Below the pieces are notes generated by a model. The model was not told the origin of the DNA, did no database searches, and was given only the letters and a program-made list of their open reading frames with translations. A DNA stretch of 36,525 nucleotides from an uncultured Pirellulaceae bacterium (GTDB lineage Bacteria > Planctomycetota > Planctomycetia > Pirellulales > Pirellulaceae). A program made the translations under genes and the position numbers. Location: the NCBI GenBank assembly GCA_938010615.1, contig CALLUY010000023.1, positions 1 through 36,525 of the forward strand, given 5' to 3'. Below, one piece after another: positions 17,020-31,772 of the stretch; the first letter of the stretch is position 1, and each line of letters opens with the position of its first letter.

Positions 17020-18342
17020 TTAAAGCTTCTCAAGCCTTAAAACGATTTCGCGCGAAGACAATCGATTGTCAGGATCGATGGCCGTAGTCAATTCAACAAT
17101 TTCAGCCAACCCTACTGGGACGCCATCGCTGCCTCCCTCAACCATGTTCTTCATCGCGAAATCAACAACCTTCCCAAATGCAAACATGTCGCTTGATGGA
17201 TTGGCGTTGAGCTCAGGTGCGATAAAGCCGGAAGTTCCGCCTCGCAGTTTGCTGCTCGCTCCATCAGCTTGTTGCGCGAAACCAAAATCGATTACCTGAA
17301 CAACACCATTGCAAACGATGATGTTGGCTGGCTTTAAGTCACCATGCGTCAATCCGTTGTCGTGCAGGAACTCCAGTGCTCTGCAAGTCTGCAGCAACCA
17401 GTTCAGAATTTCAGTCGAGGTGGTTTTTGAGTTGATTGCGTGTTTTAGGCTAACTCCGTTTGCATACTCCATCACGATGAACCAGCTGCCGTTTGGTAGT
17501 CGGCCAGCGCCCAGAAACTGAACTACGTTTGTGTGTTCTATTGAAGCGAGAATTTTGGCTTCATTCAAAAACAGTGATTCTGCTGTTTCGTCGCCCAGCC
17601 AAGATTTGCGAAGCGCTTTCACAGCGACTAAAGAGTTCGTCCGATGACTACGTGCCAAATACACTTTCCCAAAAGCGCCTGCGTCGATCATTTTCAACAG
17701 GTCAAAGTCATCGTAGTTTGAGTCAAGCAAAGCTGCATCGTGGTCCGGACCTGTCGTCTTACTCTCGCCATCAAAATGAAATTGGAGGTTCAGTGTCGAT
17801 TCTTTTGCCAGCTTCGCCTTTAGGATCTGAAGGATGCGGCGGATAGTCCTTTCGGAACGCCCAGTCCGCTCGGCGATCTCGGCCAACGTGAATCCGGCGA
17901 GACGTCCTTGAGCGACTTGAGAGACAAGTGGCTTTTCGTTGTGGACCAACGACTCCAGTAATTCGGCAAGCTTGTTTCCTGCGCCATCGAGGCGATTGTC
18001 GAGTTCTACTTCAATTGCATGTTCCAGATTCGTATTCCGCTTGGCCGCGCCGAAGTGTTCGACCTCGCGCTTGAGATGGTTGATGCAAATAGCCGCAAGT
18101 AATCGCCACAGGTCGCCCTGTTTGTTCCAGAAAACTTCATCGCGGTCCGCTTTCGCAAAGAAGGCCTGAAACGCCGACTGCATGACGTCTTCAGGGTCGA
18201 TTTTTGCCGTGAGTTGCTTTCCGATTCGGGTTCTTGTCAGCGCGAAAAGTCGCTGAGCGTATCGCGAATAGATCTCGAACGCCGCTTCAGAGTCGCCTTC
18301 ACGGTATCGGTTCAGCAGGATTTTGGAAAAGTGGCTGTCCAT
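17020..18342 (-). CDS. ECF sigma factor fused to Hanks-type Ser/Thr protein kinase
   Basis: One 440-residue polypeptide with two complete modules. Residues ~8-95 are sigma region 2 (LLNRYREGDSEAAFEIYSRY, DPEDVMQSAFQAFFAK, LWRLLAAICINHLKRE). Residues ~125-180 are region 4, with the helix-turn-helix LAEIAERTGRSERTIRRIL. Residues ~213-440 are a kinase: glycine loop DAGAFGKVYLA (220-230), Lys242, Glu261, catalytic HGDLKPANI (Asp335, Lys337, Asn340), DFG (352-354) and APE (375-377). All catalytic residues are kept; the HGD in place of HRD marks a non-RD kinase. It may act as a promoter-specific sigma factor controlled by its own phosphorylation state. Planctomycete ECF groups linked to kinases are known; a direct fusion in this order is notable. 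Confidence 0.92.
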   Translation of the reverse strand: MDSHFSKILLNRYREGDSEAAFEIYSRYAQRLFALTRTRIGKQLTAKIDPEDVMQSAFQAFFAKADRDEVFWNKQGDLWRLLAAICINHLKREVEHFGAAKRNTNLEHAIEVELDNRLDGAGNKLAELLESLVHNEKPLVSQVAQGRLAGFTLAEIAERTGRSERTIRRILQILKAKLAKESTLNLQFHFDGESKTTGPDHDAALLDSNYDDFDLLKMIDAGAFGKVYLARSHRTNSLVAVKALRKSWLGDETAESLFLNEAKILASIEHTNVVQFLGAGRLPNGSWFIVMEYANGVSLKHAINSKTTSTEILNWLLQTCRALEFLHDNGLTHGDLKPANIIVCNGVVQVIDFGFAQQADGASSKLRGGTSGFIAPELNANPSSDMFAFGKVVDFAMKNMVEGGSDGVPVGLAEIVELTTAIDPDNRLSSREIVLRLEKL

Positions 18343-19710: not shown

Positions 19711-20946
19711 ATGCTCGCAAGCCACCAATCGCCCAACTACCGTACGCTCGCGCTGCGGTTAATTTGTATTCTGTTAGCGATCGTTTCGATCGGCTCACTT
19801 CTGCAATGGTCCCCGCAAACTCAAGAGGTTGCCCAGCTGTCGGGTCTGGTTCCAGATGCGTTGCAGACTGATCCTTTGTCAGCGAAAGATCACGAGCTGG
19901 CAACTGGTTTGGCCGGAACGGTATCTGCGTTTGAGTGGTTGGGCCCTTTGGCGCCCATCGCGATTTCTCCGTTCTTTGGATTGGCGTGCCTTTGCGGAAT
20001 TAGTCTGTACGGAGGCGATTGGATGCCTGCGTTTGCAAGCGGCAATCCCGTTCTGCAGAATCCCGCAGTGCTGTGGGCGTTTGTGATTCTGACTGTGGTT
20101 ACTTCGTTGCCACGTTTAACGAAAGTCAGTAAGCCAGTTGGCCAAGCGATTGACCAGCTGGAAGCGTGGTCAGGGATCATTGCCATCATCGTGATCCGAA
20201 TCGCGTCGGCAACATCCGATCCTGCGGCGGGTGAAGCGACTGCTATGGCGGCGATACCGGTTTTCGAGTGCGGGTTCTTTTCGATGTCCGCGGATGTCCT
20301 GTTTTCGATCGCAGCAATGATCAACATTGTTGTGATCAACACGGTTAAGTTCTTCTTTGAAGTCTCCGTTTGGTTGATGCCATTCCCATTCGTGGATGCA
20401 ATGCTCGAAGTCGCGAACAAATCAGTCTGTGCAGCGTTGATGGCGGTTTATGTATGGAGTCCGTTTTGGGCGACGATGTTGAATCTTGTGATCTTCCTCG
20501 CCTGCTTCGCAGCTTTCAGTTGGGTTAAGCGACAGGTAACTTACATGAGAAGCATACTTTTCGATCCGGTTTGGACGATGGTGCAGAAGTCTTATGGGCA
20601 GCCCAAAACAAAAGAGCTGACCGTGTTCCCGCAGCAGGGGATTGGCCCGTTTGCCGCGAGAGAGCGATTGCAGTTGGTGGATACGGGCGAGTCTTGGGAA
20701 CTTCGACAAACACGAATGTTATTCCCGTCAAAGACTCACGTGTTGCCGAAGTCTGACTATCAAATGCAGATGCAAAGCGGCATGATTGTGAACAAAATCA
20801 ATGTTGCGGGTCCAGAGACTCCTGAAACGCTTCTCTTTACACGTCGCTTCAATGATCACCTCGATCAGCTGGCGGGATTGCTGGGAGTGGAAGTCGCGGC
20901 TCAGGAAGAGCAGTCGTCGGTCAGTGATCTGGCGATCGGGACGTAG
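19711..20946 (+). CDS. Polytopic membrane protein, unknown function
   Basis: A 411-residue protein that I do not recognise. Six or so hydrophobic stretches are visible: near residues 13-31 (LALRLICILLAIVSIGSLL), 78-100, 117-134, 152-166, 195-228 and 245-270 (FWATMLNLVIFLACFAAFSWV). A soluble C-terminal region of about 140 residues begins at KRQVTYMRSILFDP and has a mixed alpha/beta look with no catalytic motif. The N-terminal ~75 residues contain a likely non-cytoplasmic loop (QTQEVAQLSGLVPDALQTDP). It is flanked by a lipid desaturase and a repeat-bearing spacer, and appears to be a single-gene unit. No Shine-Dalgarno site is evident at the ATG. Confidence 0.82.
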   Translation: MLASHQSPNYRTLALRLICILLAIVSIGSLLQWSPQTQEVAQLSGLVPDALQTDPLSAKDHELATGLAGTVSAFEWLGPLAPIAISPFFGLACLCGISLYGGDWMPAFASGNPVLQNPAVLWAFVILTVVTSLPRLTKVSKPVGQAIDQLEAWSGIIAIIVIRIASATSDPAAGEATAMAAIPVFECGFFSMSADVLFSIAAMINIVVINTVKFFFEVSVWLMPFPFVDAMLEVANKSVCAALMAVYVWSPFWATMLNLVIFLACFAAFSWVKRQVTYMRSILFDPVWTMVQKSYGQPKTKELTVFPQQGIGPFAARERLQLVDTGESWELRQTRMLFPSKTHVLPKSDYQMQMQSGMIVNKINVAGPETPETLLFTRRFNDHLDQLAGLLGVEVAAQEEQSSVSDLAIGT

Positions 20947-21134
20947 GGGCAGGAGAAATGCAACTTGGTGATCCAGCCTTTTGGCGAAACTGTAAACTTT
21001 CAAGTAGCACGGTGGTCTCCACCGTAACTGCATGTCGACGTTGGAGACCAACGTCCTACGCTCCACCGTAACTGCATGTCGACGTTGGAGACCAACGTCC
21101 TACGATGCGACGGCCGGAAGCCGCGGTTCCGTAT
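20947..21134. other. Intergenic spacer with tandem hairpin repeat
   Basis: A spacer between convergent genes. It is dominated by the 44-bp perfect tandem duplication annotated separately, plus the hairpin CGGTGG-TCT-CCACCG (21010-21024). It may serve as a bidirectional terminator region, but there is no T-run. Confidence 0.5.
21017..21104. repeat. Perfect 44-bp tandem duplication
   Basis: The segments 21017-21060 and 21061-21104 are identical. Each begins CTCCACCGTAACTGCATGTC and ends CCAACGTCCTACG, and each contains the hairpin CGTTGG-AGA-CCAACG. Confidence 0.97.
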
Positions 21135-21605
21135 CTAAAGGGCGCCCATTTGGCGGCGGTAACTTGCTTCGTCGATTGCGGCGGATAAAAACTGATAACT
21201 CAGAATGTACTTTTGAATTCTAAGGCTGTCATTTGCGCAGCTTTTTTCGCGGTACAACGTTCGCTCAAGCGAAGTGTTGTCTTTCAAGTCGGCAAGTTTT
21301 ACTTCGGTCGCGATTGGGTTGTCTTTGATTGCGACAACGTAATCTTCATAGCTGACGTCGTCTCTATGTGTCACCAAGTCGACGCCATCGACTACCTCTT
21401 TCGAAAACCCCTTCTCTCGAAGCTGTTCCAATGTCATTGGCGTGTCTTCAACCAGATCGTGCATCACGGCGACCATTTTTGCGTCCAGGGAACCAACGGA
21501 CATCATCGCGCGAATGCAATGCAGCACGTACGGCGCACCGCTCTTGTCTTTGATTCCGCGGAAATTGTCTGCGACCAAATTTAGCGCTTCATCCAGATCC
21601 GACAT
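21135..21605 (-). CDS. HD-domain hydrolase, RelA/SpoT (MESH1)-type, possible small alarmone hydrolase
   Basis: A 156-residue protein consisting of a single HD domain. Motifs follow the ppGpp-hydrolase pattern: YVLHCIRAM (His29), VAVMHDLVEDTP (His49, Asp50, with the following Glu-Asp) and VKLADLKDN (Asp106). Its length fits stand-alone small alarmone hydrolases, which remove pyrophosphate from (p)ppGpp with Mn2+. It lacks synthetase, TGS and ACT domains. The nucleotide substrate is inferred; other nucleotides are possible. The start ATG at 21605 follows the selenoprotein stop by 24 bases on the same strand, so the two genes probably form an operon. Confidence 0.82.
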   Translation of the reverse strand: MSDLDEALNLVADNFRGIKDKSGAPYVLHCIRAMMSVGSLDAKMVAVMHDLVEDTPMTLEQLREKGFSKEVVDGVDLVTHRDDVSYEDYVVAIKDNPIATEVKLADLKDNTSLERTLYREKSCANDSLRIQKYILSYQFLSAAIDEASYRRQMGAL

Positions 21606-21629
21606 TCAAGTGTTCCTTGTGCTGGTGCG

Positions 21630-21980
21630 TTATCCAAATACGGATTGATACATTTCTTCGTTGAACCCGACGACCATTTTCTTTCCAACTAGCAAAGTCG
21701 GTGCTCGTAGGTTTCCTGTTGGCCCAAGGACCAGTTTCAGGATCTCGTCTTGGCTCAATTCGGTCTTCTTCAGGTCAACTTCGATGACTTTCTTCCCTTT
21801 GGCAGATATCAAGGTCGATGCCTTTTTCAGTACACCAATCGCGTCGTCTTTCTGGTGCGTTTCTTTCTTCGCATCGACTTCGACTTTTGATTCAATGCCT
21901 GCATTCGCAAGAAACTCTTGCGTCTTTGTGCAGGTCTTTCAGCCACGACGGTGGTAGCTCCAGTCAATCTTCTTTGGCAT
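21630..21980 (-). CDS. ArsC/Spx-like thioredoxin-fold selenoprotein (TGA at codon 14 = Sec)
   Basis: Ordinary translation breaks this gene in two, but one frame runs from the ATG at 21980 to the TAA at 21630, interrupted only by TGA at 21941-21939 (codon 14). With Sec (U) there, the protein is 116 residues: N-terminal PKKIDWSYHRRGUKTCTK, giving a UxxC redox motif (Sec14, Cys17) after the first strand, where family members have CxxC. The remainder fits the ArsC/Spx-like fold: helix TQEFLANAGIESK, a basic middle, and LGPTGNLRAPTLLVGKKMVV with the cis-Pro segment RAPTLL. A bacterial SECIS-like hairpin follows the TGA (21898-21934). It is probably a cytoplasmic thiol/selenol oxidoreductase; the substrate is unknown. 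It is in an operon with the HD hydrolase. The alternative, a disrupted pseudogene, is unlikely given the intact frame and hairpin. Confidence 0.88.
21898..21934 (-). promoter_or_regulatory. Bacterial SECIS element
   Basis: Four bases after the UGA, CCTGCA pairs with TGCAGG (outer 6 bp). Inside it CGCAAGA pairs with TCTTGCG (7 bp, perfect), separated by an asymmetric internal loop (CAAAGA and AA), leaving apical loop GUU. Exactly 23 bases separate the UGA from the loop G. Known bacterial SECIS elements have a small apical loop with an early G about 16-37 bases after UGA, and this fits. Confidence 0.85.
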
Positions 21981-22113
21981 GTTACTTTCAGCGGGTTTAT
22001 AGGTTTGACAATCAGTCGGGCAATGCCTCAAATGGTGCCCGACAACATTGTCAATAACTGAATTCGAATTGTACAGGGCGGTCTGTCTCGTTAACCCGCA
22101 GGCCGAAATTAAA
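21981..22113. promoter_or_regulatory. Divergent promoter region, selenoprotein and DUF3127 genes
   Basis: A 133-base spacer between the divergent starts at 21980 and 22114. No specific promoter or operator could be assigned by eye. Confidence 0.4.
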
Positions 22114-22497
22114 ATGAGTGAATCGTCAACTGTTCGCGGCATCGTCCACGTAATCGAAGAAACAAAAACATTCGGCCAAAAAGGTTTTCGCAAGCGAACC
22201 GTGGTGCTGGAAAAAGACAACGGTCGGTTTACGAACTACGTGCCGGTCGATTTTTTGCGTGATGCGTGCGATACCGTCGATGAAATGAAGGTCGGCGACG
22301 AAGTCGAGATCAGCTACCAGCTTTCGGGTCGAAAGTGGCAGCGTGACGCTCAAAGCGAAGTCAAATATTTTCTTTCAGCAGAAGCGTTTAGCTTCAAAGT
22401 CGTTTCAGGCGGCGGTGGAGCAGCGGCGGCTGCAGATTCAGGTTCAGCCAACGATGCATTTGCTGAGTCGTACGACGAAGGCGACATTCCGTTCTAA
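22114..22497 (+). CDS. DUF3127-family OB-fold protein with SSB-like acidic tail
   Basis: A 127-residue protein. The ORF opens at 22048, but the ATG at 22114 gives the family-typical start SESSTVRGIVHVIEE. The core (residues ~5-95) matches DUF3127: TKTFGQKGFRKRTVVLE, NYVPVDFLRDACD, GDEVEISYQLSGRKW. It is thought to be OB-fold-like. After a flexible Gly/Ala/Ser linker the protein ends EGDIPF, resembling the acidic DDDIPF tip by which bacterial SSB recruits partner proteins. A nucleic-acid-binding role with SSB-like partner recruitment is inferred; it is not a canonical SSB. It is divergent from the selenoprotein gene and convergent with the TolC gene. Confidence 0.82.
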   Translation: MSESSTVRGIVHVIEETKTFGQKGFRKRTVVLEKDNGRFTNYVPVDFLRDACDTVDEMKVGDEVEISYQLSGRKWQRDAQSEVKYFLSAEAFSFKVVSGGGGAAAAADSGSANDAFAESYDEGDIPF

Positions 22498-22531
22498 GGA
22501 CGTCTTGAGTTCTGAATTGGCGAAGCGACGA

Positions 22532-24382
22532 TTACTCGAAAGCTAAACCGCTTCGAGCAGTTTCATATACTGCCTGGTAGAAGAAGTACTTGTACTGGGC
22601 ATCAAGCAATTGAAGTTCAGCATCGGCAACTGCGGCTTCGTAAATGTTGAGCGTAATCAAGTCGATGTCGCCTTCTTCGAACGAGATACGGCCGAGTTCC
22701 AAAGACTTATTTGTGAGTCGCAAGTTTTCTTTTGACTGTTGGATCTGTTCATCCGCCGCGTTGACGGCGGATGCAGCATCTTGAAGTTCAGCGCGAATTT
22801 TGTCGCTTGTGAAACGGATTTTGGCGTCGATTTGAGTCAGCTTGCCAGACGCTGACTGAATCTTACCGCGTCCTTTGCGTCGCTCGAGCGGGACTTCGTA
22901 GAAGACTCCCAGTTGAAGCTCAAACGGCGTCTTGTCTCCCAAGCTGCTGGTTTCGCCACCGACATCTTGGCCGGCGAAGCCTTTCAAATCGAGCTTGGGC
23001 AATGTCAGGTTTTCGCCGTATTGCCGGTCGATACAAGCCTCCTTGCGCATCGCTTGTAGTTCAAGTAACTCTGGCCGAACAGCGAACGCATTTTCAATGT
23101 CTTGCGCCAATTGGCTCTGTTCAATTCGAGATGATCCGGGGAACAGTTGAGGCAAAAGTTGCTCAGATGCGATCACCGGTTCGCAGTTCGCATCTCTCCA
23201 GAAAATCGACAGCTTGATCGCGGCCTTCTCAAGCGAACGACGGGCTTTGATCAAATCGTTCTTCCGCTTTGCGATCAAACGGTCGTTGTCGATTTGAGCG
23301 ATCTCGGCCAAGTCGCCTTCTTCGACGCGCGTTTTGATTGCAGAGACACGTGTTTCTGCCAGCTGCAATAGCCTTTGCTGAATCTGAGCGGCTTGTCCCG
23401 AGGCTAGCCAATCCCAGTATGCTTGTGTTGCGAAGCGTTGGAACTGAAGCAAACGTGACTCGACGTTCGATTCGACTTGCTCACGTTGGGCATCGGAGGA
23501 AAGCAGTTTTGCACGTCGCTGGTCGATGTCGCGGTCTTTCAATAGTGGAATCGAAAATCCAGCTTTGAGTTCACCACCTTCGTTAGTTTCACGCTCACCG
23601 AACCACGGCTCAAAATTTCCATCGCCAATCCGATAAGTGCCGTAGACTTCGCCGCCACTGTAAAGCGGGCGATTGATGCCGACTCCGTTTCGATACGTTT
23701 GATAGAAACCCAGCGGCTGCGAAATGCTGTGTCCGGAAACGACTCGATCAAACTCGCCCCATGAGGATAGAACTTTTCCGTTCGCTGTTTCAATTTCGCC
23801 AACGGCAATTTCAATCTCCGGATAGCAGGTTTTAACTGATTCGAGAACTTGGTTGAGAGAGAGAGGGGAGGGAGTGCCCGTCAAAACATCTTGTCTCGAA
23901 TTCGACTCAACCAGATTGGAAGATTCTTCCGTGGCTTCGTTCAAGGAGGCCTCTTCGTCGACGGTAGAAATTAATCCTTCAGTTGGCTTTTCTTTTTCGT
24001 CTTGGGAGAATGACGCCAGTTGAATTGGGCTCTTTGCTTTTGCCGTAACTCGACCTTCGCTTCCTGTGAAATGGTTGCTTGAGAGGCTGGTTTCTATGGG
24101 ATGGCGATGAAACGGATTGCTCACTTTGCAGCCAGCAATCGCGGCAACAAAGACAACCAAGCTAACAGAAACACAAAAGCGTACTGTCGAGATCAGAGAA
24201 TCGTTTACTTCGGGATTTTCGGCGGCTTGGCAAGTTTCTTCTTCGATTCTTCCGTCGTCGTCATGACAGGGAAGCCGTTCATTTGACGCCAAACTTCGTA
24301 GCCTAACGAGACGTTGCCCAGCACCACCCAGCCGTTGGTGCGGACTCCTTGTCTTAGAAAACGATCGCTTTCGATTGGCCAT
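22532..24382 (-). CDS. TolC-family outer membrane efflux lipoprotein
   Basis: Up to 616 residues from the ATG at 24382. The real protein probably begins near residue 60, where the lipoprotein signal STVRFCVSVSLVVFVAAIAGC lies. Between 24382 and that signal the only other usable start is a TTG at 24292, and the first ~60 residues overlap the upstream adaptor gene and look unlike protein, so the start is unresolved. The mature part has the long TolC helices: LNQVLESVKTCYPEIEIA, FQRFATQAYWDWLASGQAAQI and LELGRISFEEGDIDLITLN, with a repeat of the helical hairpin unit in each half. It forms the outer-membrane exit channel. It is last in the operon with the HlyD-like adaptor and the ABC protein. 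Confidence 0.88.
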   Translation of the reverse strand: MANRKRSFSKTRSPHQRLGGAGQRLVRLRSLASNERLPCHDDDGRIEEETCQAAENPEVNDSLISTVRFCVSVSLVVFVAAIAGCKVSNPFHRHPIETSLSSNHFTGSEGRVTAKAKSPIQLASFSQDEKEKPTEGLISTVDEEASLNEATEESSNLVESNSRQDVLTGTPSPLSLNQVLESVKTCYPEIEIAVGEIETANGKVLSSWGEFDRVVSGHSISQPLGFYQTYRNGVGINRPLYSGGEVYGTYRIGDGNFEPWFGERETNEGGELKAGFSIPLLKDRDIDQRRAKLLSSDAQREQVESNVESRLLQFQRFATQAYWDWLASGQAAQIQQRLLQLAETRVSAIKTRVEEGDLAEIAQIDNDRLIAKRKNDLIKARRSLEKAAIKLSIFWRDANCEPVIASEQLLPQLFPGSSRIEQSQLAQDIENAFAVRPELLELQAMRKEACIDRQYGENLTLPKLDLKGFAGQDVGGETSSLGDKTPFELQLGVFYEVPLERRKGRGKIQSASGKLTQIDAKIRFTSDKIRAELQDAASAVNAADEQIQQSKENLRLTNKSLELGRISFEEGDIDLITLNIYEAAVADAELQLLDAQYKYFFYQAVYETARSGLAFE

Positions 24383-31492: not shown

Positions 31493-31557
31493 TTAGTGCT
31501 TAGTGCTTCGTGTTTAGTGCTTCGTGTTTAGTGCTTCGTGTTTAGTGCTGAAAGCAC
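31493..31557. repeat. 14-bp tandem repeat array ending in a hairpin
   Basis: TTAGTGC occurs at 31493, 31500, 31514, 31528 and 31542. The last three intervals are exactly 14 bases and the repeat unit is TTAGTGCTTCGTGT. The array ends with GTGCT-GAA-AGCAC (31545-31557). Confidence 0.93.
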
Positions 31558-31772
31558 GGCATGTTGTAGCCATGGACGCAAGTCCATGGAAAACGTTGAC
31601 AACAATCGGTAGTCCTGAAAGGACGACAGGAAAATCGCGGTCGTGCGATGCTTGGCTCCTGCCGTGCCTTCGGCACTCTACGGCGACTCATTCACTCTAG
31701 CCACGGACTTACGTCCATGGCTAATACAAGTCGTCACTTCGTGACTGAAGTTGCAAACGTTTTAATTCACAA

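Follow-up and report, generated by a model that had tools for sequence, protein, structure and literature searches.

Does the in-frame TGA at codon 14 of a short minus-strand frame encode selenocysteine (Sec), or does it simply end a small peptide? The question is raised by a locus within a 36,525-nucleotide stretch of DNA from an uncultured Pirellulaceae bacterium, which is referred to in full as the window. An earlier inspection of the letters (the sequence-only reading) had proposed that the frame encodes a redox protein of the ArsC/Spx type in which UGA replaces the first cysteine codon, and that the gene carries its own SECIS element. Our analysis leads to the same answer. The locus is almost certainly a genuine selenoprotein gene, in which UGA codon 14 would be decoded as Sec through SelB, tRNA-Sec, and the SECIS hairpin, giving an ArsC/Spx-fold UxxC redox protein. 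The features on which this answer is based are collected in Table 1.

Table 1. Coordinates of the putative selenoprotein gene and of the elements within it
Feature	Position	Strand	Remarks
Putative selenoprotein gene, ArsC/Spx-like (NF041106)	21630..21980	minus	ATG at 21980, TAA at 21632-21630; 116 residues, counting UGA as Sec
UGA codon 14, predicted selenocysteine, first residue of UxxC	21939..21941	minus	homologues have only TGA or a Cys codon here
Cys17 codon, second residue of the UxxC pair	21930..21932	minus	invariant across all 51 aligned rows
Five codons Thr-Gln-Glu-Phe-Leu (codons 20-24), which also encode the SECIS	21909..21923	minus	synonymous choice frozen in UGA-type homologues
SECIS apical hairpin, 7-bp upper stem and GUU loop	21906..21922	minus	UGA-type homologues keep the stem through compensatory changes
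Apical loop GUU, G = 21915	21913..21915	minus	G in 97/97 distinct UGA-type sequences (set includes the best 80 of 554 loci)
Whole two-tier hairpin of the sequence-only reading	21898..21934	minus	lower stem 21934-21929 with 21903-21898 not conserved

A protein family that spans the UGA codon

The minus-strand frame from 21980 to 21630 contains a single in-frame TGA and zero other internal stops, and both the letters and the translation bear out the earlier description. The translation reads MPKKIDWSYHRRG, followed by UGA (21941-21939) and by 102 residues up to the TAA; the peptide at the UGA is MPKKIDWSYHRRG-U-KTC, the HRRG-U-KTC that had been claimed. The 116-residue protein matches the NCBIfam profile NF041106, 'ArsC family (seleno)protein' (ArsC_rel_Se_1), with 137.8 bits against a cut-off of 85, and the alignment pairs residues 5-111 with profile positions 1-107 of 107, on both sides of the TGA. 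Because this match spans the TGA, we regard the frame as one gene. The Pfam ArsC profile is also matched (39.7 bits, cut-off 24). Membership in NF041106 entails Sec or Cys at the first UxxC/CxxC position, which is where the TGA falls. The assignment of a selenocysteine to an ArsC/Spx-like protein thus finds support in a family score above cut-off across the UGA, and NF041106 is already catalogued as a selenoprotein family, in line with the earlier statement that ArsC-like proteins are among the families with selenoprotein members.

The family was searched in the genomes of 147 relatives and in 14 control genomes. An NF041106-type gene was found in 52 of the 147, in 51 over the cut-off, and in the control genomes the family exceeded the cut-off in 0 of 14. 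At the column of the UGA, the 51 loci of the relatives (the window's own excluded) have TGA in 46, one of which (L070) is cut by a contig end, and TGC or TGT in five (L021, L022, L024, L028, and L064). A further set was drawn from named genome contigs, where the best 80 of 554 confirmed loci have TGA in 76 and Cys in four, proportions that are biased since the ranking was by likeness to a UGA-type query. The two sets overlap, as some genes are common to both. Every locus in each, 51/51 and 80/80 (the latter the best 80 of 554), carries Cys or Sec at this column, which answers the check proposed beforehand and places the TGA where the first redox Cys of the family is expected. A sequencing error at the TGA is unlikely, because TGA recurs, together with the hairpin, in 46 independent loci of relatives. 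The record titles of the best 80 of 554 loci are mostly those of Planctomycetota and Acidobacteriota; one record each is titled Verrucomicrobiales, Rokuibacteriota, Tectomicrobia, Nitrospinae, and Zixiibacteriota. The UGA form also occurs in a complete genome, in the record titled Planctomycetes bacterium K23_9 (CP036526.1).

These homologues bear on the reading in which the UGA is an ordinary stop that ends a short peptide, what follows downstream being the remains of a pseudogene or a gene of its own. TGA does act as a normal stop elsewhere, ending five of the 15 window ORFs picked for a check, and it also terminates 10 of the 45 complete homologues of the UGA type. Against this stand the span of NF041106 across the UGA, the recurrence of UGA at one column in 46/51 relatives' loci with the remaining frame open and conserved and Cys the sole alternative, and the selection on the hairpin described below. 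The conservation of the column, the exchange with Cys only, and the selected hairpin led us to reject an ordinary stop or pseudogene as very improbable.

On a 107-row tree with poor resolution, parsimony gives six Sec-to-Cys changes, of which well-supported branches force only one, and repeated conversion is therefore unsupported on this tree. The tree leaves out one UGA-type homologue (L149) that has an additional in-frame TAG five codons past the UGA and is either a decayed copy or an error. Two planctomycete- or acidobacteria-like copies (L139 and L121) lie on contigs whose titles name Klebsiella pneumoniae and Kuenenia stuttgartiensis (MAGs), probably through mislabelling or mixed bins.

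Selenocysteine machinery in the source genome and its relatives

The sequence-only reading had asked whether selA, selB, selD, and selC are present in the same genome. The source assembly (4.70 Mb, 221 contigs, 84.28% complete) contains all of them above their curated cut-offs: selA with 552 bits (cut-off 267.9), selB with 349.8 bits (cut-off 242.25), selD with 262.6 bits (cut-off 125), and selC, the tRNA-Sec gene, with a score of 65.9 against a gathering score of 47 and the anticodon TCA as assigned by ARAGORN. A second NCBIfam scan returned identical names for the SelA, SelB, and SelD proteins. This is the complement of selA, selB, selD, and tRNA-Sec by which a bacterial selenoprotein is judged. 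Sequence comparison therefore establishes the gene, the putative UGA recoding signals, and the machinery, from which Sec would be predicted to be inserted at codon 14. In the locus L010 (G000:C68:22772-23689), the selD match lies inside an open frame of 741 residues, and the product may be a fusion protein.

Across the relatives, selA exceeds the cut-off in 89 of 147 genomes. It is found in 40/47 genomes with the UGA form, in 3/5 with the Cys form, and in 46/95 in which the gene is absent; with relatedness ignored, the Fisher P for 40/47 versus 46/95 is 2e-5. Among the seven UGA-form genomes without selA over the cut-off, tRNA-Sec is found in four and selB in three, one or both of them in five, and neither in two (G004 and G023). 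The latter genomes are 80% and 71% complete, respectively, and a fragment of selA lies at the end of a contig in G023. One genome given as 99% complete (G029, with loci L069 and L078) has the UGA form, an intact hairpin, and tRNA-Sec, with selA and selB below cut-off or absent; that these are assembly gaps is a plain guess.

The machinery also bears on whether the UGA might be read through, or reassigned to another residue such as Trp, with no selenocysteine involved. The frame would be open under such a code, and G004 and G023, two of 47 UGA-type genomes, lack selA, selB, and tRNA-Sec over the cut-off. However, all nine non-UGA rows (from the rows that include the best 80 of 554 loci) carry Cys and never Trp, a tRNA-Sec with anticodon TCA is present beside SelA, SelB, and SelD, and TGA remains in use as a stop. 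We consider this reading extremely improbable; as with the ordinary stop, UGA as Trp is rejected by the conservation of the column, by exchange with Cys only, and by selection on the hairpin.

A conserved apical hairpin within the coding sequence

The selenocysteine reading predicts a SECIS element close behind the UGA. A gap of four bases (21938-21935) separates the UGA from a hairpin with a lower stem of 6 bp and a perfect upper stem of 7 bp (21922-21916 with 21912-21906), and the loop G lies 23 bases from the UGA. RNAfold, given the 51 nt after the UGA, returns the identical fold at -16.1 kcal/mol, in agreement with the hairpin, gap, stem, and GUU loop that had been described from the letters. 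The bacterial SECIS model as given in a review (PMC13188914) has a loop of 3-9 nt, an upper stem of 4-16 bp, an MFE of at most -7.5, a G in the first two loop positions, and a spacing of 16-37 nt. The window's element falls within this model (3-nt loop, 7 bp, G first, 23 nt, -16.1 kcal/mol), as the earlier expectation of a SECIS just downstream of the UGA with an early loop G had anticipated. A covariance model that covers this hairpin type found no second copy in the genome, the next-best hit having E 1.32.

Taken alone, the window's hairpin is only moderately unusual. Among 200 synonymous recodings, 4% are equally stable (MFE, P = 0.04), and 21.5% have a stem of 7 in one or another of the allowed registers (P = 0.215). 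Folding energy was set aside as proof of a SECIS; it is weak alone, with a mean z of -0.76 for 47 UGA-type sequences versus +0.59 for five Cys-type sequences, and when any allowed register is admitted, two of the five Cys-type sequences form a 6-7 bp stem by chance. The case therefore rests on conservation of the hairpin.

For this purpose the relatives' loci and the best 80 of 554 contig loci were joined, and all counts from this set, which ignore relatedness, are to be read with that selection. The joined set holds 123 UGA-type rows, corresponding to 97 distinct 45-mers, and nine Cys-type sequences. The loop G is kept in all 97. An uninterrupted stem of 6-8 bp forms in one of two registers in 92 of the 97, in the window's register in 87 and as a 7-bp stem shifted by one base, with the loop AGUU, in five; in the other five, only the closing pair is mismatched, and pairs follow below it. 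Of the seven stem pairs, four (18-32, 20-30, 22-28, and 23-27) show changes on both sides among the 88 rows in the window's register, and 27 of those 88 lack pair 17-33. The stem is lost in the Cys-type sequences, where all nine have three pairs or fewer in either register and two of nine retain G at the loop position. The lower stem is not conserved, each of its six pairs forming in only 16 to 34 of 47 UGA-type rows, and the 'two-tier' description accordingly holds for the upper tier and fails for the lower. The pattern in these sequences indicates that the apical hairpin is under selection. The register-shifted elements (L118, L121, L124, L140, and L152), in which a 7-bp stem and an AGUU loop are built from other bases, amount to a natural redesign of the element.

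The hairpin also appears in the choice of codons. In 46 complete UGA-type rows, counted with relatedness ignored, Thr is encoded by ACG in 30/30, Glu by GAG in 44/44, and Leu by CTT in 45/45, although CTT makes up 10% of Leu usage. The shares of CAA and TTT under the hairpin are 0.89 and 0.90, and the share drops to 0.57 at the next codon. The motif Q-E/G-F-L-A at this site of helix 1 is gone in eight of the nine Cys-type proteins (set including the best 80 of 554 loci). We lean slightly toward a reading in which the SECIS dictates part of the protein, the freezing of codons 20-24 fixing QEFLA, the stretch of helix 1 that lies behind the active site, with the lineages that changed Sec to Cys having lost the hairpin there.

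Fold, probable function, and place among known selenoproteins

A model was computed with AlphaFold2 from the 51-row alignment, with Sec entered as Cys (pLDDT 91.0, pTM 0.83). Its helix 15-26 begins right after residue 14, and the invariant columns of the alignment include W7, Y9, R11, position 14, C17, R92, and P94. The 116-residue product would have an ArsC/Spx fold with UxxC at the start of helix 1. Decoding of UGA codon 14 by SelB and tRNA-Sec would be directed by the hairpin, which lies within the coding sequence 16 nt downstream of the UGA and offers the conserved loop G. The fold and motif suggest that the protein most likely acts as a redox protein of the thiol-disulfide type; by the same token, the Sec selenolate would attack the substrate, Cys17 would resolve the selenenylsulfide, and a thioredoxin- or glutaredoxin-type reductant would recycle the protein. 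Both this catalytic cycle and the nature of the substrate are read from fold and motif.

Two more specific functions can be weighed against this general one. The first is a selenoprotein that would act on RNA polymerase as a redox switch in the manner of Spx. Among solved structures, Spx proteins come closest both in sequence (3l78, E 1.7e-8, with both Spx Cys residues aligned with positions 14 and 17) and in fold (TM 0.52-0.56, rmsd about 6-7 A, a moderate likeness), and Spx and MgsR (PDB 3l78, 1z3e, and 6ghb) share the ArsC/Spx fold with a redox pair, CxxC in Spx, at the same place. Spx and MgsR, however, have Cys in both positions of the pair, whereas Sec replaces the first here, and the Spx/MgsR profile TIGR01617 is scored at 42.7 bits against a cut-off of 75.05. 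We judge such a switch quite unlikely.

The second is an arsenate reductase proper. The Pfam ArsC match speaks for it, and reviews place the family among 'Arsenate reductase-like' proteins (PMC13188914 and PMC9312934). ArsC arsenate reductases and their UxxS selenoprotein form share the Pfam ArsC superfamily with the window's protein, and Sec at the nucleophile. Yet the protein scores 20.5 bits with the glutaredoxin-type arsenate reductase profile TIGR00014, where the cut-off is 106.05; it has UxxC in place of the UxxS listed for the arsenate reductase selenoprotein, and none of the six neighbouring proteins scanned is of the ars type. A dedicated arsenate reductase is fairly unlikely, and a thiol-disulfide type redox protein remains our preferred reading.

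The gene neighbourhood, compared across 50 loci, gave no functional clue. A divergent DUF3127 gene (22048-22497, plus strand) adjoins the selenoprotein gene in 6/50 loci; its product has the C-terminus EGDIPF, which we take to resemble the acidic tail of single-strand-binding proteins. The downstream 156-residue gene, with a weak HD_4 match below cut-off, stands beside the selenoprotein gene in 0/50 loci, and so do two other neighbours, the flanks being about 0.5 to 1.5 kb and the two far neighbours often beyond reach. A promoter scan upstream of the gene found nothing, and a phage collection searched with 20000-23500 in 'near' mode gave no match. Elsewhere in the window, two Acido-Lenti-1 RNAs (RF01687, gathering score 37) face opposite ways with about 110 bases between them, at 31544-31589 (minus, 51.6 bits) and 31701-31746 (plus, 43.7 bits), and a single 440-residue ORF at 17020-18342 (minus) combines an ECF sigma factor domain with a protein kinase domain.

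In the 2026 review PMC13188914, an 'Arsenate reductase-like protein, NF041106, UxxC' is listed with a citation of PMC2398784, a 2008 GOS ocean survey that has 'Arsenate reductase 2, cd03032, UxxC' with 42 sequences beside a UxxS form; in our own reading, this row fits best with the present family. PMC9312934 carries the same UxxC entry, and PMC1794560, PMC1088965, and PMC4807772 describe ArsC-like selenoproteins, arsenate reductase selenoproteins, and planctomycete selenoproteins, respectively. A literature search over a limited collection found no paper on Mariniblastus together with selenocysteine. The likeness to the NF041106 entry comprises a full-length match, UxxC, exchange of Sec and Cys, and a bacterial SECIS after the UGA; there is no categorical difference, and the window's gene is a planctomycete copy.

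The gene is thus an added member of an already catalogued selenoprotein family, real, correctly read, and largely ordinary, and the finding is less surprising because that catalogue entry exists. It illustrates that raw sequence can suffice for a correct reading of genes with an in-frame UGA, and the family gains a planctomycete example whose own genome encodes the machinery. A further benefit is a well-sampled set (97 distinct UGA-type and nine Cys-type sequences, including the best 80 of 554 loci) in which a bacterial SECIS is visible both under selection and after its loss. If the SECIS does dictate part of the protein, a whole redox family would have an active-site helix shaped by translation and not by catalysis, and its natural Cys members would reveal the sequence that the protein would otherwise choose at that helix.
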